Shown: positions 4,155 through 62,655 of the stretch, one piece after another
How positions within the stretch are numbered: position 1 is the first letter of the stretch
How the letters are laid out: each line of letters begins with the position of its first letter
NCBI GenBank assembly: GCA_947561585.1
Contig: CANNZV010001829.1
Location: forward strand, 62,001-126,000
Origin: Caprella mutica
Taxonomy: Eukaryota > Arthropoda > Malacostraca > Amphipoda > Caprellidae
Reading direction: 5' to 3'
DNA: 64,000 nt
Made by a program: the position numbers and the translations under genes
The notes under the pieces: generated by a model
Seen by the model: only the letters and a program-made list of their open reading frames with translations
Database searches by the model: none
Told to the model about the DNA's origin: nothing

Positions 4155-5735
4155 TCACCGGGCAACACCCAAACTGCGGTCATCATACTTCTCCTTGACC
4201 AACGTCAGGATACTGTAAGAATTGCCCCTTTGAACTGCCAAACCTATTCTCTGCTCTAACCAAAAGGTCTCTCTCACATCATCAGTGACGTCGGTTATGC
4301 AACGGCCAATTTCAGGAAGGAGTGTGCCTGTCGTTTCACCATAGCTACCTGCGGTTTCCACAGCTATACGTTCCAACCGATATCGAATGCAAAGAGCCGC
4401 ATATTTGCGCTTCCTCTTCTCTGCCTCCTTGGCTGCGCTACCAAGTGACAAAGCCGAGTCGATCAAGTAAAACGCCGCGTGAGTGTGTACACATGTTGCA
4501 TCCCAACAAAGACACTTCCCATCTGTAAAAGGAGAGACTGATATACCATCAGGACGCTTACCATCACCCCTATCAATCCCCAGTGGCTCAATCACTGAAG
4601 GAATACCAGCCGAAATCAAAGCTCTCCTAATAACATCATTCGGGGCTGCATGTCTCGGATGGCGTCCAGCACTGTAGCGACATGATAGACCGTGATGTCC
4701 CATTGAATCCACTCTCTGGCCACATCGGCACACGTGTGGCTCACAGATGTCCGCACCAACACGCAGCGCGATCGCAACTCAAAAAGACTCTGCGTCAAGT
4801 AGCGCTCCAAGTGTGGGAACTGGAAGTGCATGTAGCCAAAGTCCGCTCTCTCTACATGCAGATGCCAGCAAACGTGTCCTAGACAACTGATCAGCCTCCT
4901 CGAGCAGTCTGGTTACAGTGGCTACCGACTTAGGTTCATCCCATGACCTCTGCCGACTCTCCATAGCTCCCTCAGCCAAGGCTAAACCCTCACTTTGCCA
5001 TTTCTCCACTGCTGCTCCAAGCTCTCGGTCATCCCCAATCTGTGTTCTCCACAGAATGGATCTAACCAAATCCTCGGTAGCTTGGTTGGAAGAAATGAAT
5101 GCGGGTAGTGCAATGTCCTTAGACATCCTGATTCCTAACTCCCCAAACCGTACCGTCAACGATGCCTGCACAAGTGAGTCTCTCTCAAACTTAACGTTGG
5201 TTACCATCGAAAGAGCTGATACAATGACCCTGTCGAACTGTGGAAGATCTTCACTATTCCTGTAAGCTGGTGAAGCACGGAAGATATATTGAAGCTTAGG
5301 CAAGGCAAAACAGTTCTTGAGCAAAGCAAAAGCTTGATGGTTCTCAATCAGTTTCAACCTTGATGAAACCCTCTCCAAATCCTCCCTCTTCTCAGCAACA
5401 GCTGCTGGTATGCCCCTCTCTATGAGTGGCGCTACCAGTAAGCCTAAATATGATACTGGGACGACTCTTAATCCTGGCATCAACCCCTCAAACAGATTCC
5501 TCGTAATTATTGATTCTTCCTCAAAATGATTCAGCAAGATCAGTTCAAACTTTTCTCGGTTAATATCCAGCTCCACTTCAGCAAGGTCATTGATTAGACG
5601 CTGCAAGCAAGTGAACACCTTTTCAGGTGAATCTCCGATTGTCCCGTCATCGATATACCAGACATTCAACTCAGTATCCACCCTTTGTGCTATCTCATCA
5701 ATTCCCAAAGAGAAAGAGCTGGACCGAAAGGGTCG
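4155..5735 (-). pseudogene. LINE reverse transcriptase (YIDDG) and RLE domain
   Basis: After a frameshift at about 5715 the RT continues with SLGIDEIAQ and motif C as VWYIDDG, then a thumb-like region. A TGA at 4779-4781 interrupts the frame; it could be a CGA to TGA CpG transition, because the downstream sequence continues in the same frame as VAIALRVGA. The C-terminal part has CRCGQ, GHHGLSC, a spaced RH, then KRPDG followed by CWDATC, the PD...D signature expected of the restriction-like endonuclease that nicks target DNA. The frame ends at 4155, leaving ~190 bp of 3' UTR before the poly(A). Confidence 0.8.
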
Positions 5736-5737
5736 CC

Positions 5738-6124
5738 CTACTGTATACCCGTTGCGGATACGAGGTTTGTTCCCCCATAGAAAAGTGTTGTTGGACCAGA
5801 ATAGGCCTGCCAAATCAGTCTATAAAGCCCCTGAGTCCTTTGTTTAGCCGCATTCAGAAACACATCTCGTAGCAGGCTATTCAAAGCATTGGCCATTTCA
5901 ATTTTGAAAATAACCTTTTTACCTTCCAACCCAAGATATCTGCGAGTGGCATGAGCTGCCGCTTCGCAAACACCTCGAGTTGAAACCCCTAACTGTATAG
6001 GGTGCAAGGATTCTCCAAGACTAGCTATAATGGGACGTGATCCTACTTTCACAGCCAAACGTCTCAAAGTGTTCCCTACAGCAATAGGAAGCACACCTCC
6101 GTCCTTTTTCACCAAAGCACTCAA
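5738..6124 (-). pseudogene. LINE reverse transcriptase, first part
   Basis: Contains the RT landmarks VKKDGG, RPIIA, the LGVSTRGVCEAA block and a degraded catalytic motif A (KIEMANALNS, where a D-x-x-NA-F pattern is expected). It ends at TGIQ followed by TAG at 5738-5740. The next residues in that frame are GDPFGPAL, the canonical QGDPxGPxL motif of non-LTR RTs, so the TAG has replaced the second Gln. The motif-A Asp also appears as Glu/Met-context sequence, so catalysis would be compromised even without the stop. Confidence 0.75.
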
Positions 6125-6384
6125 AGTGGCTCCATAGAATATCGGCAGTCATCCCCTGGCTCTGCAGGCAATGAGAGTTCCTCAGGAGCAGGAGGGTGTT
6201 TCCGTTGGAGAGCCGTCAAAGTTTCATCATTTTCAGGCGAAATCTCCGACGACGAAGCCAACAGACTTACTGCTCCGGTAATGTCTCCTTCAGACAACTT
6301 ATCAGACACACGCTTCCCAAGTTGAACGTCCTTATTCACTGTTCCCATACCTAAAACGCCCGCCTCCAGAATGAATAACAGGTA
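6121..6384 (-). pseudogene. LINE linker segment before the RT
   Basis: Direct in-frame continuation of the PHD segment after its TAG. It is acidic and proline-containing (for example LPAEPGDD) and ends with a frameshift at about 6121-6124, after which the RT frame opens. In related elements the residues before the RT palm motifs include a conserved fingers region. Here the linker runs almost straight into the VKKDGG motif, so the fingers region appears shortened, probably by an internal deletion. That inference rests on memory of the family, not on an alignment. Confidence 0.55.
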
Positions 6385-6867
6385 CTATTCCATGAAAGAC
6401 GCGACCTGTCTTTTCAATTCTGTAGTTAACGAAGCATTCCATTTTTTTTCCGAACTGCGTTGTCCGAGTCTCCTGAGAGCCCAATAGCAAAAGCTCAAGA
6501 GTCTACCCCATGCAATGGGGGTTCCCTCCTGAATTACTCTTTCAAGGAACTCTTGCAACGCATCCGCTACGCAAAACATGGCTCCTTTATTGACTATCCT
6601 CTGTACTTTCATGCTTCTACGGCACCGAGAGATGTAGGCCTCCAAATCAATCGTTGCATCTGTGGCGGGTTGTGTTGTTATCACCCCCCGTCCCAGACAC
6701 GACACACAAGACCATCGAGGGGTAGCATCTGCTTGGCGCCTAGACAGACCCACGCAAGAGAGGTGAATAACATCCCTGCAACAAGTGCACACAACAGTCC
6801 GCTTTCTGATGTTAATAAAAGAACATGACACACAACGGTCCCTTTCTGTCTTATGCTCACTAGTGGG
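6385..6867 (-). pseudogene. LINE N-terminal segment with PHD-type zinc finger
   Basis: The open frame runs from just after a TAA at 6868-6870 to a TAG at 6385-6387. Near its start is a Cys4-His-Cys3 pattern: CVSC, then CTCC, then HLSC, then WSCVSC, the arrangement of a PHD finger. Such N-terminal PHD fingers occur in some invertebrate LINEs and are thought to bind chromatin or nucleic acid. The ~90 residues after the finger are helical and basic. No ATG lies at the start of the frame, so the true start is lost or lies upstream across a frameshift. The terminating TAG is in frame with the next segment, which shows one nonsense mutation rather than a natural ORF end. Confidence 0.7.
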
Positions 6868-21055: not shown

Positions 21056-21612
21056 ATGCGAGAAGAAAGATCGAGAAGGATGTACTAAATGAGAGCAGGA
21101 AGATTTGTGAGAGTAGAAAGATTGAGAAGAATGTACTAAATGAGAGCAGGAAGATTTTTGAGAGAAGAAAGATTGAGAAGAATGTACTAAATAAGAGCAG
21201 GAAGATTTGTGAGAGAAGAAAGATTGAGAAGAATGTACTAAATGGGAGCAGGAAGATTTGTGAGAGTAGAAAGATTGAGAAGAATGTACTAAATGAGAGC
21301 AGGAAGATTTTTGAGAGAAGAAAGATTGAGAAGAATGTACTAAATGAGAGCAGGAAGATTTGTGAGAGAAGAAAGATTGAGAAGAATGTACTAAATGAGA
21401 GCAGGAAGATTTGTGAGAGTAGAAAGATTGAGAAGAATGTACTAAATGAGAGCAGGAAGATTTGTGAGAGTAGAAAGATTGAGAAGAATGTACTAAATGA
21501 GAGCAGGAAGATTTTTGAGAGAAGAAAGATTGAGAAGAATGTACTAAATAAGAGCAAGAAGATTTTTGAGAGAAGAAACATCGAGAAGAATGTACTAAAT
21601 GGGAGAAGAAAG
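21056..21612 (-). repeat. 51-bp minisatellite, ~11 units
   Basis: Tandem copies of a 51-bp purine-rich unit containing 'gagaagaatgtactaaatga' and 'gagcaggaagatttgtgaga'. Because 51 is divisible by 3, every frame repeats as a 17-codon block. This keeps two overlapping minus-strand frames open (20928-21581 and 21053-21661), with units such as FLLSQIFLLSFSTFFSI and SHKSSCSHLVHSSQSF. Two frames open at once over the same DNA, with no domain, argues that these are by-products of the period and not proteins. Confidence 0.9.
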
Positions 21613-21881
21613 TTTGTTTGAATTTTCTTTCACCGTTAAAAATACGCAAGTGTGAACACATGTCAATATGTGTTTTTTTTCCAGCGGTGTTTGAAAACGC
21701 AGTTGCGAAGGGAATGCATGTGCCCTAAAATGCAAATGCCCAGAATGTATGTGCTCTAAAATTTGCTCGAAATTGAAATTAAAAGAAATAAATATATTTT
21801 CAAAATATTAATATGATTAGTTATACAGCTAGTAGGAAATAATAAAAAATACTAAACTAAAGTTACTGAATATGTAGACCA

Positions 21882-23189: not shown

Positions 23190-24955
23190 AAGATTGCTAT
23201 CAGACAAGATAGCTAAGACTCTCATCTCAACTCCGAGGTCAAGTCAGGGAGGCGCTTGACAGTTCAGTAAGCCAGCTCACTGAGTATCCAGTCAAGTCGC
23301 CTTTTGTATGTGCCAACAGTTAGCCTGCTGACAACATTTTCTGGTAATCTGTTCCAAACATTACAAATCTTTACCAGCATGGAGTTCTCCAGCTGAGCAG
23401 TGGTGAACCGAGGCAGAACCACCTTCTACCCGTGGTTGCAGGTGGGGTTCACACACAGCGAAACGTAGTCTTCAGGATCAACTCGACTTATCCCTCAAAG
23501 GATCTTAAAAGTCTCAATGAGTTGACCCCTCATACGTCGCTGCTCAAGCGTGAAGAGGCCTGGGTCATCTAACCGACGTGCGTATCCCATGGATCGGATT
23601 TCAGGTACAAGTTTAGTCGCCCTCGCTTGCACCCGTTCCAACAGCTGTACATCAGTTCGCAATGTCGGTGACCAGAACTGGACCGCAAACTCCAAAATAG
23701 GTCTTACCAGAGAGTTACAACGTGAGGACTGTCTCTCTGTTTCTGTATCTGAAATGCCTCTTCATGTACCCTAAGATCTTGCTTACTCTTTTCTCAGCTT
23801 CCAGGCACTGTTGAGAGAACTTTAGATCCCTGGTGATCATAACTCCAAGATCCTCCTATACATCAGTGGGTCCTATTGGGGCTCCAAGTAGCGTGTAGGC
23901 AGCTTCAGCGTTCCTATGAACAGCATGAAGTACTCTACACTTGTTCACATTGAAGGGCATCTGCCACTTTTCCGACCATTCTCCGATCTTGAAAAGATCA
24001 CGTTGGAGTTGTCCGATGGCCTTTGAACTTGCAGCGTTGATGCCAATCTTTGTATCATCAGCAAACTTTGATACCCTACTGACGAGTCCTACGTCAAGGT
24101 CATTTATCTAAATAACAAAGAGCAGAGGACTAAGGACTGAAACCTGGGGAATTCCGCTGGTTACGGAGCTCCACACAGAGGCCACAATATTGACCACAAC
24201 TCTTTGTCGTATGTTATTTAGCCATAACCTTATCCATTGTAGGACTCGACCACTCACACCAATAGCTGCTATTTTCGCCATTAACCTCTTGTGAGGTACC
24301 TTGTCAAATGCCTTCTTGAAATCAAGGTAGACGATGTCAGCAGCTTTGGATTTGTCATGCTCCTGAAGAACCTAGTAGAAGAACTCTACTAAGTTTGTCA
24401 GGCATGACTTCTCGCGAAGAAAGCCATGCTGACTCTTTCCTATGAGCTGGTGTTCTTCCAGGTGATCCACAATTCTATCCTTGATGATGGATGCAAGCAA
24501 TTTTCCAGGAACCGGTGTCAAACTAATTGGCCTGTAGTTACTACTGTCTGTGGTCTCACCTGTCATGAAAATTGGGGTTACATCCGCGATCCTCATGTTG
24601 TCGGCGACCTCGCCCGACTCCAAAGAGACATTGAATATCTGTTGGAGATGTGCCGCCAAACCATCCTTCACGTTCTTCATCACTGTCGGTAAGAATACAT
24701 CAGGACCAACTGCCTTGTTAGGGTGCAGCTGGCCAAGTTTGTAAACTACTTCCTAAACAGTACCAACAATCTCAGTCAGGGGCATTCGTCCCTCGTAGTA
24801 AACTACGGGGTCATGGGTGCCAAGCGCATCCTCCCTGGTGAAGACACTGACGAAATAACTGTTGAGTTAGGTGACGATGTCGGCATCCGAAGTTGCTAAC
24901 ACACCTTGGGTTGTCCTGATTGGTCCGATGGAGCTTCTGGAAGGCTTTCTGCAGA
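23190..24955 (-). pseudogene. CR1-like LINE reverse transcriptase pseudogene
   Basis: Minus-strand remnant of an APE-type non-LTR element of the CR1/L2/jockey superfamily. In order it shows LNSYFVSVFT (pre-RT), NYRPISLTPVPGKLL (RT motif 0-1), SQHGFLREKSCLTNLVEF, a motif B/C region SVLSPLLFVI then TAG then INDL, KFADDTKIG (motif C, about 24045-24070), and a C-terminal block beginning LLERVQARATKLVPEI and ending RRMRGQLIETFKIL. The 5' end is truncated at 24955. Stops, including a TAG in place of the Tyr before INDL, make it nonfunctional. Both ends abut units of the 32-bp minisatellite. Confidence 0.85.
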
Positions 24956-26868
24956 AAAAAAGTCACTGTGCTGATGTACTATCAGAGAAAAGAGTCACTT
25001 TGATGATGTACTATCATAAAAAAGAGTCACTATGATGATGTACTATCAGAGAAAAAAGTCACTGTGATGATGTACTATCAGAGAAAAGAGTCACTGTGCT
25101 GATGTACTATCAGAGAAAAGCGTCACTGTGATGATGTACTATCCAAGAAAAGAGTAACTGTAATGATGTACTATCAGAGAAAAGAATCACTGTGATGATG
25201 TACTATCAGAGAAAAAAGTCACTGTGATGATGTATTATCAGAGAAAAGAGTCACTGTGCTGATGTACTATCAGAGAAAAGAGTCACTGTGATGATGTACT
25301 ATCCAAGAAAAGAGTAAAACTGTAATGATGTACTATCAGAGAAAAGAATCACTGTGATGATGTACTATCAGAGAAAGGAGTCACTGTGATAATGTACTAT
25401 CAGAGAAAAGGTCACTGTGATGATGTACTATCAGAGAAAAGAGTCACTGTGATGATGTTGTATCAGATAAAAGAGTCACTTTGATGATGTACTATCATAA
25501 AAAAGAGTCACTGTGATGATTTACTATCACAGAAAAGAGTCACTGTGATGATGTACTATCAGAGAAAAAAGTCACTGTGATGATGTACTATCAGAGAAAA
25601 GAGTCACTGTGATGATGTATTGTCAAAGAAAAGAGTCACTGTGACGATGTACTATCAGAGAAAAGAGTCACTGTAATGATGTACTATCAGAGAAAAGAGT
25701 CACTGTGATGATTTACTATCACAGAAAAGAGTCACTGTGATGATGTACTATCAGAGAAAAGAGTCACTGTGATGATGTACTATCAGAAAAAAGAGTCACT
25801 GTGATCATGTATTGTCAGAGAATAGAGTCACTGTGTGTGATGATGTACTATCAGAGAAAAGAGTCACTGTGATGATGTATTATCAGAGAAAAGAGTCACT
25901 GTAATGACATGCTATCAGAGAAAAAAGTCACTGTGATGATGTATTATCAGAGAAAAGAGTCACTGTGTTGATGTACTATCAGAGAAAAGAGTCACTGAGA
26001 TGACGTTCTATCAGAGAAAAAAGTCACTGTGATGATGTACTATCAGAGAAAAGAGTCACTGTGATGATGCTGTATCAGATGAAAGAGTCACTTTGATGAT
26101 GTACTATCAGAAAAAAGAGTCACTGTGATAATGTACTATCAGAGAAAAGAGTCACTGTGATGGTGTACTATCAGAGAAAAGAGTAACTGGGATGATGTAC
26201 TATCAGAGAAAAGAGTCACTGTGATGATGTACTATCAGAGAAAAGAGTCACTGTGATGATGTACTATCAGAGAAAAGAGTAACTGTGATGATGTACTATC
26301 AGAGAAAAGAGTCACTGTGATGATGCACTATAAGAGAAAAGAGTCACTGTGATGATGTACTATCAGAGAATAGAGTCACTGTGATGATGTACTATCAGAG
26401 AAAAGAGTCACTGTGATGATGTACTATCAGAGAAAAGAGTCACTGTGATGATGTACTATCAGAGAAAAGAGTCACTGTGATGATGTTGTATCAGATGAAA
26501 GAGTCACTTTGATGATGTACTATCAGAAAAAAGAGTCACTGTGATGATGTACTATCAGAGAAAAGAGTCACTGTGATGATGTACTATCAGAGAAAAAAGT
26601 CACTGTGATGATGTACTATCAGAGAAAAGAGTCACTGTGATGATGTACTATCAGAGAAAAGAGTCACTGGGATGATGTACTATCAGAGAAAAGAGTCACT
26701 GTGATGATGTACTATCATAGAAAAGAGTAACTGTGATGATGTACTATCAGAGAAAAGAGTCACTGTGATGATGTATTGTCAGGGAAAAGAGTCACTGTGA
26801 TGATGTACTATCAGAGAAAAGAGTCACTGTGATGATGTACTATCAGAGAAAATAGTCGATGTGATGAT
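24956..26868 (+). repeat. 32-bp minisatellite, ~60 units, with higher-order structure
   Basis: A 1.9-kb tandem array of a 32-bp unit ('gatgatgtactatcagagaa' followed by 'aagagtcactgt'). Marked variant units recur. 'atccaagaaa' occurs at 25141 and 25301, exactly 160 bp (5 units) apart. The 'ttgtatcag' or 'ctgtatcag' plus 'cactttgatgatg' pair begins at 25451, 26063 and 26479; the last two are 416 bp (13 units) apart. This shows block-wise duplication inside the array. Purely repetitive: there are no spacers and no coding role. Confidence 0.95.
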
Positions 26869-32090: not shown

Positions 32091-32119
32091 GCTATACTTA
32101 TTACTTATTCAAGGGCTTT

Positions 32120-32562
32120 ACGATGTCAGTATGCTAGTTTACAATGTCTGTGTGCCCCTTTATAATGACTGTGTGCCCCTTTACAATGTCTGTGTGCCCC
32201 TTTACAATGTCTGTGTGCCCCTTTACAATGTCTGTGTGCCCCTTTACAATGTCTGTGTGCTCCTTTACAATGTCTGTGTGCTCCTTTACAATGTCTGTGT
32301 GCTCCTTTACAATGTCTGTGTGCCCCTTTACAATGTCATTGTGCTCCTTCACAATGTCTGTGTGCTCCTTTATAATGTCTGTGTGTTCCTTTATAATGTC
32401 TGTGTGCCCCTTTACAATGTCAGTGTGCCCCTTTACAATGTCAGTGTGCTCCTTTACAATGTCTGTGTGCGCCTTTACAATGTCTGTGTGTGCCTTTACA
32501 ATGTCTGTGTGCCACTTTACAATGTCTGTGTGCCACTTTACAATGTCTGTGTGCCCCTTTGA
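32120..32562 (+). repeat. 21-bp minisatellite, ~21 units
   Basis: Tandem unit 'acaatgtctgtgtgcccctt' plus one t. The period is divisible by 3, so open frames appear in two plus frames (YNVCVPL and TMSVCPF repeats) and one minus frame over the same DNA. This is a period artefact and not evidence of proteins. Variants (cccc/ctcc/cgcc/cact) cluster, indicating local duplication. Confidence 0.95.
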
Positions 32563-51339: not shown

Positions 51340-51625
51340 TTATGTTTATGTTGATAATTGTTATTAAATGATATAATAATTGTAGTTAAAGGTGGTAATT
51401 GTTCTGAACAGTGATGATTGTTATTAAAAGTTTTAATCATCATTAAAGATGATAATTGTTCTTAGTAAAGGTGAAAAAAGTTACTACGTATAGTAAATGT
51501 AAATATTTGTTATAAAAGGTGATAATTGTTATTAATGGTGAATATTGTTATTATTGGTGAATATTCTTTTTAATTGTGACAATTTTTCTGAAAGTTGATA
51601 ATTGTTATGAAGGGGATAATTGTTA
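51340..51625 (+). repeat. Degenerate GATAATTGTTATTAAAGGT repeat
   Basis: About twelve imperfect copies of an 18-25 bp unit built on 'gataattgttattaa' plus 'ggt', with irregular spacing. Confidence 0.7.
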
Positions 51626-54667: not shown

Positions 54668-54776
54668 CTAGGCAGCAAGTATTTATTCCTGGGATATTAA
54701 GGGAGTATCCCAGGAATATATCCTTCTTCCCAGGGTTGTTCCCTTAATATCCCAGGAATAATGCTTGCTACCTGGG
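54668..54776. mobile_element. 109-bp foldback element
   Basis: Left arm 'ctaggcagcaagtatttatt' through 'gatattaaggga' (54668-54704) and right arm 'cccttaatatcccaggaata' through 'gcttgctacctggg' (54740-54776) are inverted copies over ~37 bp with few mismatches. The centre 'tcccaggaatatatccttct' continues the theme. No coding capacity; a MITE-like or hairpin repeat. Confidence 0.75.
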
Positions 54777-54849
54777 GTACGTCTTGTCCCTCTCTGACAT
54801 AGATGGACATCCACATTCCACATGTCCCACGTCTTACCCAACTCCGTTT

Positions 54850-55005
54850 TCAAGATTTAAACCCATTATTATTCACTCGATATCATTTGGGGATATCTCC
54901 ATATCGCAAGAACGTCAAAATAGGACATCCCCTCGATAACGTTGGGGATATCGAACCATAGGGAATTTCCACGGAATATCCCGTGAATAATTTTTTGTTA
55001 CCTAG
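54850..55005 (-). repeat. GATATC/GGATATTC-rich interspersed repeat, copy 2
   Basis: Shares words in reverse orientation with 9062-9297, notably 'gacatcccctcgata' and 'cgcaagaacgtc', and ends in 'tacctagg'. Probably the same repeat family. Confidence 0.5.
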
Positions 55006-55029
55006 GCAAAATTCTCCAAAGGTTGTTTC

Positions 55030-55525
55030 ACCAGTACCCTCGCTTTTCACCAATCCCCCATCATTTTTTCTACATACCCCAATATTTTTTAAAAATTACA
55101 CATCACTTCTCCTCATCCCCTATTACTTTCTCTTCATCCTCCATCAGGTTCTCTTCAATTCCCCATCACGATTTCCCCAGTCCCCATCAATTTTCCTCAT
55201 TCCCCATCATATTTTCCCCACCCCATCAAATTCAAAAATTATTTCTATTCTCACTCTAAGGATGATAACTGCCTGTCTTTAATGGGTAGGAGGAAAAACA
55301 ATACCCTCTACCCCGACAACTCTTTCTACTGTCGTTTAAATCCCCCTTTTGTAAAAAAAATGTTCGATTTTGGAAAAAAGATCAATGATATTCAAAATGA
55401 AGGGGATGGGGGAAATTGATGAGGAATGGGGAAACAGTGATGGGGAATGATGAAAATGTGATGGGGAATTTAAAAATAATATGTTCACTTTTGAGAAAAT
55501 CATGGGGCATTTGGAGAAAGTGAGG
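55030..55525. repeat. Inverted pair of CCCCATCA / TGATGGGG tandem repeats
   Basis: 55030-55250 repeats 'ttccccatca' and 'cctcattccccatca' on the plus strand. 55390-55520 repeats the reverse complement 'tgatggggaat' and 'gaggaatggggaaa'. Together they can fold into a long imperfect hairpin. Open frames in the left arm are composition-driven. Confidence 0.7.
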
Positions 55526-55954: not shown

Positions 55955-58078
55955 AGGGAATGGCTTTCCTGACGCTGATGAAGAAGATAGGAGCCCTCCT
56001 ACCATTGACTCAGACCTCTCTGGGACACTTCAAGCTTTCCCCTTACCAAAACCCGTCGAGGGCCTCCCCGTTCTCTCCGAAAACGATGTGGAGGCGGCTC
56101 TTCAGGAATGGCTTATTAGTTCTTCCCCTCCACTCAGAGAAGAGGAGGCACATCCTAGGACCAACCAAATCATCCTCCCGGAGATCCCAGGGCAAGACTC
56201 TCTTGGTGACCTGCATCAGGAACTTAACATCGAGGAGGTCCCCTTGGAGGACGTCACAGTCGACAACGACCTATAATGACACGGGAAACTTCACCCGCAG
56301 AATCAATGGCTTCATAACTAGGCGCCGAGTATCCTCTACAATCCCCTATCCACTTCCAAGTGGATGAGAGGACACGAGTTGTCTCCCCTCCACCTCTTGT
56401 AAGGTGGTTCATCTCACACACGGATTCTGACGGCCTTCCCATCAATGATCAAGACAATCCTGACCGTAACAACGGAGAAATCGACCAGGATGATGACACC
56501 TCACAGGACTCTCGCGATGACCCCGAGGATCCTCCTGAAGATAAAGAAGAGAAGATCAATCTCTCGGGACCAGCAAGAAATGGCGGCAACTCTCCTGGTG
56601 AGCATAACCCTAGAAATAAATTACCATTTATTAAACGCTCATCTTCTGTTAGCCAAAATCTTACTCTTACTACGGCCCTTAATTACTTACTACGGCACTT
56701 TATTTGTGAATATTGTTTTCTGAATGATAACCTTCAACATAACCATTCTCGTAAACCTAATTATGAATCTTATGTATTATCAAATTCATATGTACCTATC
56801 ATAACAGGGGATTTACCCAGCATAAAAACGGGCGATCCAGCGGTTAACTCAATCATAGAAAAACGCACTAATATCTTCATGCCAAAAGGCTTCAATTGCA
56901 ATCATTACACACCTTTAAAACAAATGGTTCATGTCGAGAGATTGGTGGAAGCGGGGGTCCTCAAGGAGGTTCCTCCTAATGGAAGACCGCACTCCACTTT
57001 TTCTCTCTTCACCGTTCCTAAGAGTGACCCTGCAAATCCCAGAGTCTTGCTGGATATGTCCCTCCTGACGGGTAGGAGTCTTTCCACTTGCCTTCAGTAA
57101 ATTCAGCATTCCCCGATACAAAAAATAAAGACAATAAAATGATCAAACTTGACCTAACTAATGGATTTTTCCATATAAAATTTTCTGATAAAGCTTCAAA
57201 ATTATTCGGGGTTCGCTGCGGAAAGAGATTCTTTAATTTTACTCGTCACCCTCAGGGCCTCACCACTTCTTCTCTTGTGTCATGCAAAGGGTCATGATTG
57301 CTGTGGTGGGGTCTCTGTTGAAAAATCTTTCCGTTAAATTTCTTATCTACTTAGACGATATTCTTTTGGTAGGAAAGGAGGAAGCTTTGGAAGAGGCTAA
57401 GTTAAGACTTTTTGATTCCTCTCTTGCATTCAATCTTAGCAAATGTTCACTAAAACCAACTAGAAGACTTAACTACCTTGGTATTACCATTGATTTCGAC
57501 AACTTAACTATGGCCTTAAGCCTAAAATTCGTGGAATGCATCCACCAAGAATTTGACTCAGTTAAAAAGAAAAACTGATCGCTAAGATACAAACAACGCT
57601 TGGTGGGCCTCATAAATTTTGCCAACTTCGTCCTAAAGCTTCCTCTTTCATTAGTTAAATTATATTACAGCTATCTTCATAAGCTTTATAGGTTCAAACC
57701 TCTTTTACACTGCAATCCCGTTCTATTCTATGCAACCCTTAATCGGGAAGTAGTCTTTGTTGACGCCACTTCGGGCTTCATCGGGATGTGGGCTCAAGGG
57801 CGGTGGCGGGCTCTTACCTTACGATGTCGCTTGCCGATATTGGAAGCGAAGTTTGCTGCTGCCTGGCTGGCTCACATCCTTTTCCCAGAAGCGGTTATCC
57901 TGTCGAATAACAAAGCAGTTATCTTCTTGTTTTCTAAAGGGAGAATGCCGCCGGGTTGGAAATTCAGCTACAAAAAGAATGTTCTCATGTGTAGGACATT
58001 TTTCTGTTCCACCCTTGTATATATTAACACACGTTCCAACCCGGCGGATAGGTTCTCTCGCCCTATCTTGTATTAATT
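55955..58078 (+). pseudogene. Hepadnavirus/DIRS-like retroelement polymerase, copy 1 (RT and RNase H)
   Basis: Polymerase remnant of a reverse-transcribing element; 5' truncated. The N-terminal acidic region (about 55970-56275) aligns with copy 2. A 28-bp deletion near 56270 breaks its frame. The next frame (56360-57100) is a Pro/Asp/Glu-rich spacer followed by RT fingers (VERLVEAGVLKEV, FSLFTVPKSDP). A frameshift near 57080 leads to KLDLTNGFFHI (motif A) and TRHPQGLTTS (motif B); another near 57280 leads to FLIYLDDILLVG (motif C, YLDD at 57348-57359) and LNYLGITID. One TGA at 57576-57578 precedes the RNase H: VFVDATSGF, LPILEAKFAAAW, VILSNNKAV (usual Asp now Asn) and SNPADRFSR. The protein stops 5 codons later, with no integrase or tyrosine recombinase. 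Confidence 0.75.
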
Positions 58079-58392
58079 AGTTAATCTTAAGGATTAAAGG
58101 CTGTTATAAAATAACTAGTACTTTTGCCATTATCTTTATTATTTAATTTTATTTTGTATAGGATTATAAGCATTACATATTTTTCTGTAAAATTGTTGTA
58201 TTATTATTATATGTATTTTTGATATATTTCCCCTTTGATATGCATTGTGTAAACTATAAGGAATTTTCGCAAAAATGTTAGTCCTAAGTATTGAGATATT
58301 AATAAAGGTTTGCGAACCCAAAGCGGGGCCCCAATCCCAAGTTGACATAGGTGTCTGGCAGTTGGAACACTTCAGGTTCCAACAGGTTTCTT
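58079..58392 (+). other. 3' untranslated region of retroelement copy 1
   Basis: AT-rich then GC-richer sequence between the RNase H stop and the shared terminal sequence. It includes 'attaataaaggtttgcg', an AATAAA-type polyadenylation word, at about 58300-58316, and a short inverted 'ggaac...gttcc' near 58365. It has no counterpart upstream of copy 2, so it is internal to copy 1. Confidence 0.5.
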
Positions 58393-58486
58393 TTCCCCTC
58401 CTCCTTTCTTCAGAAAGGGGCTCGGGTTCCTTATAGCTATATAAGGAACCGAGCCTTGGAGGCAGAGAAATAACCTTGTCAGCTTC
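58393..58486 (+). repeat. 94-bp terminal sequence of retroelement, copy 1
   Basis: About 96% identical to the reverse complement of 60320-60412; the first ~70 bp are identical. It contains a 37-bp near-palindrome from 'ggctcgggttccttatagct' to 'atataaggaaccgagcc', whose centre supplies a TATATAAGG TATA-like word on the plus strand. It follows the 3' UTR of copy 1, while its partner precedes the capsid-like ORF of copy 2. This is the expected placement of a short terminal redundancy (LTR-like) carrying a core promoter. Seen alone, the pair also forms terminal inverted repeats around 58.4-60.4 kb, so a DIRS-like inverted-terminal-repeat reading is possible. Confidence 0.6.
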
Positions 58487-58509
58487 GGATTTGGACCCTT
58501 GAGATTTGG

Positions 58510-59224
58510 GACCCTTGAGGACAACCTGTGTCCTCTCATCCACTTGGAAGTGGATAGGGGATTGTAGAGGAGAAGTGGAGCCTGGTGATGAAGCCAAGGA
58601 TTCTGCGGGTGAAGTTTCCGGTGTCATTATAGGTGTTCTCTCCGGGAGGTGGATGTTTAAGTCGTTGTCGACTGAGACGACCTCCCAGGGGACCTCCTCG
58701 ATGTTAAGTTCCTGAAGCAGGTCACCAAGAGGGTCTTGTCCCGGGATCTCAGAGAGGATGATTTGTTTGGTCCTAGAATGTGTCTCCTCTTCTCTGGGTG
58801 GACGGGAAAAATTAATAAGCCATTCCTGAAGAGCCGCCTCCACATCGTTTTCAGAGAGAACGGGGAGGCCCTCGACTGGTTTTGGTAAGGGGAAAGCTTG
58901 AAGAGTCCCAGAGAGGTCTGAGTCAATGGTAGGAGGGCTCCTCCCTATTTCTTCAACAGCGTCGCCATAGATGAGAAGATGTAGTTCCTCTCCATCCTGG
59001 CTAATACGACGAATCTGAAACTTTGGTAGGTTGAAGTTGTCCTCGAAAGAGGAAGAAGAGAAGAGCCAGCCTCCCCTGACCCCTCCTATCCTCAAGTGGC
59101 ATGGGGGTGTGGTGTCGGAGATTGAAGGGTGGAGGAAGATGTAGCTTGAAGTTAGAAGAGGTAGAAGAAGACTCTGATCGCCTTTGCCCGTTAACCCGTG
59201 GGTCTTCTCCGAGGAGAGCGACAT
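58510..59224 (-). pseudogene. Retroelement polymerase N-terminal region, copy 2
   Basis: Minus-strand open frame homologous to the N-terminal polymerase region of copy 1. Shared blocks are PPTIDSDLSGTLQAFPLPKP, ENDVEAALQEWL, EIPGQD and QELNIEEVP. It keeps the 28 bp that copy 1 has lost (encoding LNIHLPERT), so its frame stays open through SPGSTSPLQSPIHFQVDERT. Homology to copy 1 stops just after VDERT at about 58520; the sequence then runs into the terminal repeat of copy 1 at 58486. The RT and RNase H are missing from this copy. The ORF continues to 58139 only by reading through copy 1 DNA. Confidence 0.7.
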
Positions 59225-59410
59225 CGTCGGTGATCAGAAGGCTCCCCCCTTCAAAAACTCGAACCGCTGCAGGGCCTCTGAAGATTCCTGTCGATAAGTA
59301 CTACTTGAGCATGTCCAGAACTGCCTGTTCCAGGTAGTCAAAGGAAGGACCCTCCCCCCCCCCCACGATCATCACGAGCCGACTCAGACATGGAGGTATC
59401 CTATGGGGTT

Positions 59411-60247
59411 CTACTTCTTCTTAGCAGCCGAAGAGTAGGTGGTTTTCGAGGAACCAGCCTTGTTGTACGTTCTCTTCTTAGTGTACTTCGACCTTGCTTT
59501 AAGTCCTGCGACACGCTCTGACAAGTCGATGCCTACCTCTACTCTCATATATGTTACGAGGTAGAACAAACGGATGCGTTCGAGATGGATCGTTTTCGCA
59601 TTGTCGTTAAGACTGTCGAAGCATTCGTCAATGCTGAAAAGGTGCTTTAATTCCTCTTTTTGGCCTTTATTCAATTTCTTGTTTAATTTATCTTCGACGC
59701 ACTCTTTCGATGATAACTGTTCTATTGAATTCTAGGTGGGCCGTGTTGTTCTGAGGTCTTTCAGTGAGAGGGGTAATAGAGCGTCTTCGCCTTCTTCTTC
59801 TTCGTGGACGGATACTGCAGGCTCACTAGGTGGATTACCCTCCCTCTGGGTGTTTGTGGTAAGGGCATCAATGTTTGTTGAAATAAGATCAATTTGGCTT
59901 TCGAGGGCCTCAAATCGGATTGCTTCTTGTTGGTCAATTTGGGAATCAATTCTAGTTAAAATTATTTTTGGTATTTTAGGATTAAGATGTGGGCGTTTGG
60001 ATTTTGGAGATTTACGTTTTCTTTGTTTTACAGATTTGGAGCTCCCCCTGGATGAATAGCCTGCACCGCTGTGGCCACTCAAACTGGATTCACTACAACT
60101 GCGTACCCTCAAATTATATCTGGCTTCAACAGGTGGTAAAACTAGTGTATCTCTAACAAGGTTACTCACTCCGGGATCCAAAACCTCCTCTGAGATAGCC
60201 TCAGGCTGAGATGGGGGCGTCAGACGATGGTCTTCCCCCGACATCAA
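59411..60247 (-). pseudogene. Capsid-like (gag) ORF of retroelement copy 2
   Basis: Minus-strand ORF of ~278 codons starting with MMSGEDHRL at 60247, just downstream of the terminal repeat. It has one in-frame TAG (59732-59734). The N-terminal half has a basic patch (KQRKRKSPKSKRPH) and a likely coiled coil (about residues 95-135, QIDQQEAIRFEALESQIDLI), then an acidic EEEEGED stretch. After the TAG, a helical domain (FSIDECFDSLNDNAKTIHLE, RIRLFYLVTYM) is followed by a basic, Ser/Thr/Lys-rich tail ending SSAAKKK. A basic C-terminal tail is usual for nucleic-acid-packaging capsid proteins. No zinc knuckle is present. Function is inferred from position and composition, not homology. Confidence 0.6.
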
Positions 60248-60319
60248 CAGGCGAACGAGGCAGGAGGCGGAGATCTGAAGTGGAACAAGGAGCGAAGTCT
60301 TGGTGATGTTCGCAGTAGA

Positions 60320-60412
60320 GAAGCTGACAAGGTAATATCTGTGCTTCCAAGGCTCGGTTCCTTATATAGCTATAAGGAACCCGAGCCCCTTTCTGAAGAA
60401 AGGAGGAGGGGA
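60320..60412 (-). repeat. 93-bp terminal sequence of retroelement, copy 2
   Basis: Reverse-complement partner of 58393-58486, lying ~70 bp upstream of the capsid-like ORF of copy 2. On the minus strand it carries CTATATAAGG, a plausible TATA box directing transcription toward the ORF. Upstream of 60412 the AT-rich flank shows no homology to copy 1, which places the element's 5' boundary here. Confidence 0.65.
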
Positions 60413-62655
60413 ATTTCAATATTAAATTTTAAAAGCAATAAATTCATTTTTGGCCTTCGTTTAAGATATTAATTGTTTCCTAATTCATATAAACGTTTCT
60501 ATAATAAGTTTATCTAATTTTATACTTTTACATGAAAATTAAATGGATTTATTAAACCTGTTATTAGTTGGCAATCAAAAAAAATGGTGTACATTCTTCA
60601 TCTTCAGACTGAAAATTAGCAAAATCTTTAAACAACATTTAAAATCAAAAATATCCATTCAAATTTGATGGGGTGAATTGAAGGGGACGATTAAGGCCGA
60701 CTCCAACTAGACCAAAAAATATTGACAAACTGCACAGTGTAGGCGAGCTTCAGATATGTTTTTGAATATTGAATATTTGATTGGCATGATATCAAAATCT
60801 CTAAACCTGCATATAAACTGTCAAGGTGAGTAGAAATATATGTTATGTGAAAACAAAAATATTTTTAAGACTTCAAACATTGACGACTGTATAGCCATCT
60901 GCAGATCTCTTTCGAAATAATTCATATAAACTAATAATAAGAATAAAAAACGTTAAACCTTTTGATAAAAGTTTTAAATTAGATATAATGATCTGGTGGA
61001 CTTTACGTTTAAATACTTGTTATGAGAAAGAAGTTATATAAAATTCATATATATAGTAATTTTGGTCGCAGATGAAAACTATTAATATCATCCCAATTAG
61101 TAAAGTGAATATTACAAAACTGAACGATGTATCAAACTCCTACCTGAATAAATATTTTCATTGAATGTTATCACAGATAAAACATGATATTTACAGTTTC
61201 AATGCAGATAACAATTTATTAAGGAAAAAAAAGTTAAGTAACGTTTAGCTAATAGTAAGTTTATTGTGAAGATAATATTTATAGAAGACAAACGTAGCTT
61301 CATATTCCAATATAATATATGTATATACAAACAATAATTATTTTTGAATCACTTTTTGACGTACCACAGGTTTAATCAAATCTCAAAATATTTTTTTATT
61401 GTTTATTGATTAATTAGAGTAATATTGTCTTCTAGAATACTAGTAGTTCCTGATTTATCAGTTTCAACGAAATTACATACAAAACTATTAATAGAGTCTA
61501 ACATATATGAGAATATCATTCGATAATAATATATTTGAACAAATGAATGAAAAGGTGAATACCGTTATATAAAAATAGAGTTTCCTCTTGATGTAAATTT
61601 CTCAAGTCTTAGTTAATAAAGTCAATATTTCGATACGTGAAATTAGTAAACTGTGAATAAATAGTCAGGGATACATTTTTCATCTCGTATTCCACTCTAA
61701 TAAATGGAACCATGAAATGCCTCTAGATTTATTTCTCTTTGATGAAGGATTGACTCTTGAAGATGATGTGAATTCCAAAGCAACTGGAGTAGCTTTAGTA
61801 TATACATATGTTTATATAGTATATCAGTGTGAGCTCGTCTCAGATTCTGGAACTGATCAATATAAATGAGACGAGATCTGTGTATTCACAATAGAGTTAT
61901 TGTTTGATTGATGTAATATATATTTATATTGATAAATAAATATAAAGATATCCGAGGATTTTAGATCTTTTATGAGATATATGTTTTTAATTTGTATATA
62001 CTTTTCGCAACCATTGAAAATGTAGATATTATTGATAGAAATATTAACTGTATCGATGACCTAATTCATAAACGTTATGCAATCCAAACTTTACATATTA
62101 ACTAATTAAGTTTAATGATAATTAATTTCATTTACATAAACTAATATTGAATTATAATTGTTTGCAAAAAGGATCATGCAAATTTTATCTAAAACTTCTT
62201 TATGTCTACAATCAGCTGCTAATCATCTTCTATCAACTTCTAGTAACTGTTATGTAATTTGCAATGAACAGTGTTTTATATTTTCACCGATAGATATTAA
62301 TTAATCTTTCTTACTAGTGTACAGTTTGATAAACTTCGTTCACCTTGATGTATGGCTTTTGTCTATAATTTTTCTTATTTGATTATTTAGCAGGGTGACA
62401 ATAAAAAGTAGATGTTCCCATCTTTATATGGCCATTAGTCCAATAATGTATACCCATGAAAAAATAACAGATGTGGCATAATGGGTCATTTGGACAATAT
62501 TTAGAGGTGACTCAAGTCAATTGAAATTTTACCATTATTGACAAAAAATATGAATACCCACAATATTTTAGTTTATCCTAAAATTTACATATTATGCAAG
62601 TTTTTTTGTACACCATACAAATAAATGATTCATTTCTTTTTTAAATAAAACTGCA
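60413..62655. other. AT-rich noncoding stretch
   Basis: No gene, RNA gene or repeat recognised. GC content drops abruptly relative to the retroelement. Confidence 0.55.

Follow-up and report, generated by a model that had tools for sequence, protein, structure and literature searches.

A likely hepadnavirus-type (HEART-like) retroelement, present as an inverted pair of decayed copies and as complete copies elsewhere in the host genome

The 64,000-nucleotide stretch of genomic DNA analysed here (the window, part of contig CANNZV010001829.1) contains, at 55971-60413, two decayed, inverted pieces from a single retroelement. We consider it likely that this element is a hepadnavirus-type (HEART-like) retroelement, with the mode of replication and the integrase-free insertion proposed below. 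HEART is likely its best name, with HEART compared by description and not by sequence; HEART retroelements are reportedly elements of insects (Gong and Han, 2018). The element bears on the origin of hepatitis B-like viruses.

The forward copy (55971..58519, plus strand) is 5'-truncated within its second open reading frame (ORF2) and has a complete 3' end, as set against other copies, and the inverted copy (58520..60413, minus strand) has a complete 5' end and is 3'-truncated within ORF2. The two directly abut (58519/58520). The preliminary description had read them as a convergent pair of partial copies, and this is borne out: they are 88-92% identical where the N-terminal parts of ORF2 (N-parts) overlap, and both have a 94-bp terminal repeat, direct in the element sense and 96% identical between the two, with chance ruled out for the matches by BLAST E values of 1e-36 to 1e-118. 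As a correction, the repeat at 58393-58486 is assigned to the forward copy, which runs on through its tail to 58519, the inverted copy beginning at the next base. A reading as inverted terminal repeats of the DIRS1 kind was discarded, because it is the 3' untranslated region (3'UTR) arm and the tail of the forward copy itself that close the repeat at 58393.

In the forward copy, an ORF2 N-part fragment (55971..56273; 91-92% match to the inverted copy) is followed by the spacer and the start of the reverse transcriptase (RT) in frame 2 (56318..57097, by DNA match to natural copies), by the RT palm with LDLTNGFFHI in frame 1, past a frameshift (57076..57294), and by the RT with YLDDILL in frame 0 (57237..57575). 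The last two gave separate RVT_1 matches (1.6e-5 and 6.5e-6, respectively), both under the curated cut-off. A TGA splits them from the connection and ribonuclease H (RNase H) piece (57579..58073), which terminates in NPADRFSRPILY and then a stop and for which DNA_pol_viral_C was the sole family up to an E value of 10 (0.0019, under the cut-off). Frameshifts and this one TGA disrupt ORF2. The YLDD RT, the RNase H as final domain and the C-terminal NPADRFSR described at the outset are all seen in the window pieces. The 3'UTR (58077..58392), which has an AATAAA at 58301-58306 and a hairpin that shows covariation, the 3' terminal repeat (58393..58486) and the tail (58487..58519, compared with the tails of other copies) complete this copy; the tail contains a 14-nt near-duplication just ahead of the start of the inverted copy. 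On the minus strand, the inverted copy consists of the 5' terminal repeat (60320..60413, first bases CCCCTCC), the gag/core-like ORF1 with a basic C-terminal tail (59411..60244), homologous to the natural ORF1 of 299-300 aa and interrupted by a single in-frame stop (59734-59732), and an ORF2 N-part (58520..59372) that shows one stop and one frameshift when set beside natural copies. The listed 361-aa ORF has an out-of-frame start, and the true ORF2 N-part begins at about 59372 in a different frame.

The assembly searched comprises 903 Mb in 7200 contigs, to which the C-numbers below refer. A six-unit TTAGG pattern occurred in it 3536 times forward and 1715 times in reverse, with 0 and 3 for the control; such repeats point to an arthropod. 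The window RNase H piece gave 38 match rows, at about 31 places including the window. Identity to this piece is 69-79% in group A and 48-49% in five group B rows; the others, most of them fragmentary or stop-bearing, show 36-72%. The 94-bp repeat was found at 24 places. The proposed search for intact copies yielded three complete natural copies, two units at C3073 and one at C498, none with a recombinase match. Their order is an approximately 90-nt repeat, ORF1, ORF2, 3'UTR, repeat and short tail, so that the layout that had been pieced together from the two halves (repeat, basic-tailed ORF1, long-spacer polymerase, RT, and RNase H last) is indeed present in single copies. ORF1 has 300 aa in C3073 and 299 aa in C498, counted from the first Met, and ORF2 has 851 and 834 aa, respectively, its RT bearing YLDD and its RNase H terminating in NPAD-x-x-SR. 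In group B, the ORF2 frames measure, stop to stop, 801 aa (C2590), 744 aa (C428) and 536 aa (C2963, where the frame is broken), and the ORF1 frame of C428 measures 312 aa. Between the groups, the RT-RNase H regions are 56-57% identical. The ratio of nonsynonymous to synonymous substitution (dN/dS) between C3073 and C498 was 0.061 for ORF1, 0.064 for ORF2 and 0.031 for RT-RNase H, and for RT-RNase H of two group B copy pairs it was 0.049 and 0.079. Purifying selection acts on both ORFs (dN/dS about 0.06). The stated absence of integrase, protease and tyrosine recombinase held throughout, none being matched by ten alternative-frame ORFs of the window or by nine ORFs of the natural copies.

The RNase H argues for the hepadnavirus type. 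DNA_pol_viral_C was matched by all five ORF2 proteins, three of them above the cut-off. When the RNase H domains were searched in isolation, it was the sole Pfam family (E up to 1) in 5/5, with a best value of 3.7e-7. Genome-wide, 12 places exceeded the cut-off for this family and seven of these are the element (24.5-27.9 bits). The RT counts in favour too, RVT_1 being matched by all five ORF2 proteins (1.2e-18 to 5.5e-20).

The ends of the element are defined. The same C-rich 5' start (CCCCTCC or a near variant) was found in the window and in C498. Of six additional places opened, five also have it (C1135 and C1057, with a common flank, C4023, a second C498 place and C54), and one, C974, is a 3' end. 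The 3' ends bear GGGAT(T/C)GGGACC or a variant, with YCTA next in 7/11 loci. At C54, 3' tail sequence intervenes between the 5' repeat (L112, C54:590450-590950) and the leader, which makes the terminal redundancy of this copy longer than that of the others. Hairpins are present in the terminal repeat, and the 3' end (58290-58486) folds with a z of -5.8. A long 3'-terminal RNA hairpin is predicted around the repeat (58325..58498, limits approximate) from this folding and from covariation over nine copies: 97.6% of 620 cells were paired (96.2 in shuffles), double-change cells numbered 14 versus 4.7 in shuffles (0/500 as high), and pairs with a double change numbered 6 versus 3.1 (11/500), far exceeding slid versions. 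Further pair types numbered 19, below the shuffles (22.2), and the alignment used for this test had also supplied the structure. The five group B loci show the same order, AATAAAGGTT followed by a predicted strong hairpin, whose outer arm, with TTGGGACC, is kept in 2/5 loci and partly in a third. No Rfam family reached its cut-off in the window; matches at 54682-55473 were rejected as microRNA families far under the cut-off, lying on inverted repeats.

Insertion was compared in six copies with both ends (C1257, C2146, C5320, C2679, the right copy of C2197, and C498). Five of the six are 5'-truncated at differing points with the 3' end kept, and C498 is full-length. No clear target-site duplication was seen in 6/6; the longest shared flank words (11 nt in C2146 and 9 nt in C2679) have one mismatch each and lie off the junctions, and the C498 flanks share TCT only. 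C3073 is a head-to-tail array that begins in a 3'UTR (contig base 51447) and contains two full units of 3912 bp, 99.8% identical, with one-repeat junctions inside. At its end (L046 8127-8164), the repeat is followed by a 12-nt tail and then by the opening 28 nt of a further repeat, which amounts to a truncated two-repeat head-to-tail junction. Copies form inverted pairs in the window, in C2197 (97%) and in C648 (91%). The divergence of the window pair is neutral (dN/dS 0.84; 8, 15 and 11 changes by codon position), with third-position substitutions at 11/34 versus a share of 0.70 for C3073-C498 (P = 5e-6), whose N-parts differ by 27, 30 and 136 changes, mostly third. Since the pair differs neutrally, the window copies were probably near-identical at insertion, and they probably inserted at one time or in quick succession and have decayed since. 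Such near-identity is as expected if they came from one multimeric DNA, from an early duplication, or as two copies of one source. Arrays can also stem from unequal crossing-over, later duplication or assembly error.

This last point and the two reservations given with the hairpin weigh against the hepadnavirus-type reading, as do several results on the proteins. In ORF1, which is 32% identical between groups, a conserved block is followed by a Lys-rich tail. The block may resemble the helix-5 region of hepadnaviral cores; the best match of the ORF1 profile in PDB (E 0.21) is not a core, and in Pfam ORF1 matched solely unrelated families under the cut-off. The ORF2 N-parts include acidic stretches, share 40-43% identity between groups and contain two tyrosines invariant across four copies; no match to the terminal-protein domain (DNA_pol_viral_N) was found in window pieces or natural copies. 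YLDD was found in 6/6 copies. Against RTs of the same genome, the RT profile scored 48.9 bits with a DIRS piece and 35-49 bits with three of the Ty3 type, and the best solved RT (HIV-2) gave 40.5 bits; its scores versus DIRS and Ty3 are about equal, with no clear nearest group. The RT tree has ten rows (six element, three Ty3 and one DIRS), without hepadnavirus, nackednavirus or HEART. Finally, the five DNA_pol_viral_C places that are not the element score higher than it does, at 28.6-32.7 bits. Two of these, C1117 and C401, were opened and are DIRS elements with tyrosine-recombinase matches, and the other three are taken to be DIRS as well, since they cover an identical span of the profile; DNA_pol_viral_C was also the best family of both DIRS RT-RNase H proteins when scanned whole. 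Since DIRS elements also match this family, its name alone cannot separate the element from them.

The DIRS-type elements, at L059 (C1117:118000-125000) and L060 (C401:229500-234500), exceed the DNA_pol_viral_C cut-off with connection plus RNase H, and that of C1117 has a long open RT-RNase H frame (726 aa) with an overlapping tyrosine-recombinase frame (753 aa). They bear on whether the element could be a relative of the DIRS (tyrosine recombinase, YR) group or of VIPER that has lost its recombinase and is supplied with it in trans. The DIRS/PAT/Ngaro/VIPER elements share with it an upstream ORF1 and an RT of the same broad branch, the lone DIRS row stands beside the element in the tree (on a branch of 2.5), and recombinase-bearing DIRS elements reside in the same genome, their whole RT-RNase H scoring higher on DNA_pol_viral_C than the element. 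In addition, the VIPER RNase H is reported to group with hepadnaviruses (available part of PMC6681497), and RNase H kinship is therefore not proof by itself. However, both DIRS controls have a recombinase match and the natural copies of the element have none, its terminal repeats are direct and not inverted, and split direct repeats (the B1-A2-B2 pattern) were not seen. The isolated RNase H is also of another type: in both DIRS elements RT_RNaseH came first (4.3e-9 and 1.4e-7), with DNA_pol_viral_C in the last or second-to-last place (0.031 and 0.0069), and the C1117 domain terminates in NSWADSLSR, not in NPAD-x-x-SR. We therefore hold a DIRS or VIPER origin to be unlikely. The initial view of the element as hepadnavirus-type rather than DIRS is supported for the RNase H, taken as an isolated domain, and for the layout; as whole proteins, DIRS RT-RNase H outscores the element on DNA_pol_viral_C.

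Direct terminal repeats, an RT of the same broad branch and the reach of the RT profile to the three Ty3 RTs (opened out of 150 Ty3-type places scored, from 2502 candidates) would also suit a degenerate Ty3-type long terminal repeat (LTR) retrotransposon with very short LTRs that has lost integrase and protease. This we regard as the least probable explanation, and a very improbable one. Copies that are open and under selection have no recognisable integrase or protease, the repeats measure about 90 nt, and by eye there are no TG...CA repeat ends, no TGG-initial primer site past the 5' repeat and no polypurine tract ahead of the 3' repeat. Searches with the isolated RNase H gave no family of the Ty3 type, and in the RT tree the Ty3 rows stand apart (97/96) with the six element rows together (83/88). 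Membership in DIRS or in the LTR retrotransposons thus fails the tests run.

The hepadnavirus-type reading is in line with the layout of hepadnaviruses, nackednaviruses and proto-nackednaviruses (Blubervirales), which likewise combine a core-like ORF with a polymerase in which N-part and spacer are followed by RT and RNase H, and the element's repeats are most naturally read as those of a terminally redundant RNA. Unlike these viruses, the element has many chromosomal copies, no detected terminal-protein or core homology, and YLDD instead of YMDD, which is reported as fully conserved among the viruses compared in the accessible text of PMC11551314; its repeat of about 90 nt also differs from that of about 33 nt in RTPV (available text of PMC12691608). 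An endogenised non-enveloped relative of hepadnaviruses (a nackedna-like virus), not resident in the genome as a retroelement, might leave the same core-plus-polymerase layout and terminal redundancy, and array-like insertions and low dN/dS might fit the repeated endogenisation of a replicator that lives outside the chromosomes. We judge this quite improbable, given many copies in two deep subfamilies within one genome, no recognisable core or terminal protein, the YLDD motif, and no related virus contig found in IMG/VR, where a motif scan gave 47 contigs, none matched by the RT-RNase H profile. Other searches added no relative: PDB phmmer with three window pieces and tblastn against phages found none, and none of 18, 3 and 373 candidates from protein database searches was accepted. 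Single-sequence structure prediction reached a predicted local distance difference test (pLDDT) of 38.9 for the RNase H and 53.9 for the ORF1 tail piece, and a fold search from the RNase H model (pLDDT 38.9) gave nothing usable. HEART, taken by its description, is like the element, which is multi-copy, has a hepadnavirus-type RNase H and probably an arthropod host. The portions of PMC12691608, PMC11551314 and PMC12440569 available describe HEART as related to Hepadnaviridae and nackednaviruses, and no account of HEART ORF1, terminal redundancy, a 3' hairpin or arrays was found in them.

We propose that a hepadnavirus-type element of this kind would replicate as follows. A terminally redundant RNA would encode ORF1, a probable nucleic-acid-binding, capsid-like protein, and ORF2, the polymerase with N-part, spacer, RT and RNase H, which may copy the RNA inside ORF1 particles. 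After a presumed priming step, the match between repeats could move the growing strand from one RNA end to the other, much as the terminal redundancy of pregenomic RNA does. The product would be linear or circular DNA, by way of a putative circular intermediate, with one or two repeats per junction, and it might rely on host end-joining or on the machinery of another element to enter the chromosome, the element itself having no recognisable integrase. More tentatively, and with more doubt than confidence, we speculate that the element is an extant relative of the hepadnaviruses' pre-viral ancestor: chromosomal, with a hairpin-ended, terminally redundant RNA packaged by ORF1 and primed by one of the two invariant N-part tyrosines, and with circular or concatemeric DNA that returns without integrase, often as head-to-tail or inverted multimers. 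Hepadnavirus relatives have been proposed to derive from an escaped invertebrate retroelement (available portion of PMC12691608). The present genome offers many copies, some of which have open, selected ORFs; the ends are defined, the terminal RNA structure covaries, and junctions of the array or inverted kind occur. With such copies in one genome, both the question of mobilization and the proposal of that paper become testable.

Some further features were noted along the element and its surroundings. A surface-protein-like frame overlapping the spacer was rejected, since 0.08-0.46 of synonymous-order shuffles match the long N-part/spacer frames; a long alternative frame over the RNase H is rarer, its length being reached by 0.016 of such shuffles. 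There are 25-bp tandem arrays, differing from one another, close to the 3' flank of the C498 copy (L047 1-260) and directly at the 5' truncation of C2146 (L052 1963-2487). A palindromic repeat of about 310 nt occurs near the C428 copy (L049 4591-4900) and within the C54 copy (L056 1976-2277); it was set aside as another repeat, apparently unrelated to the element. Elsewhere in the window, another retroelement (4155-6831, minus strand) is present in pieces, namely an RT fragment (RVT_1 0.0013, under the cut-off) and a PHD-finger ORF, and tandem arrays were seen at 24952-26868, 21057-21621 and 32116-32560, with offsets near 32, 51 and 21 bp, respectively.

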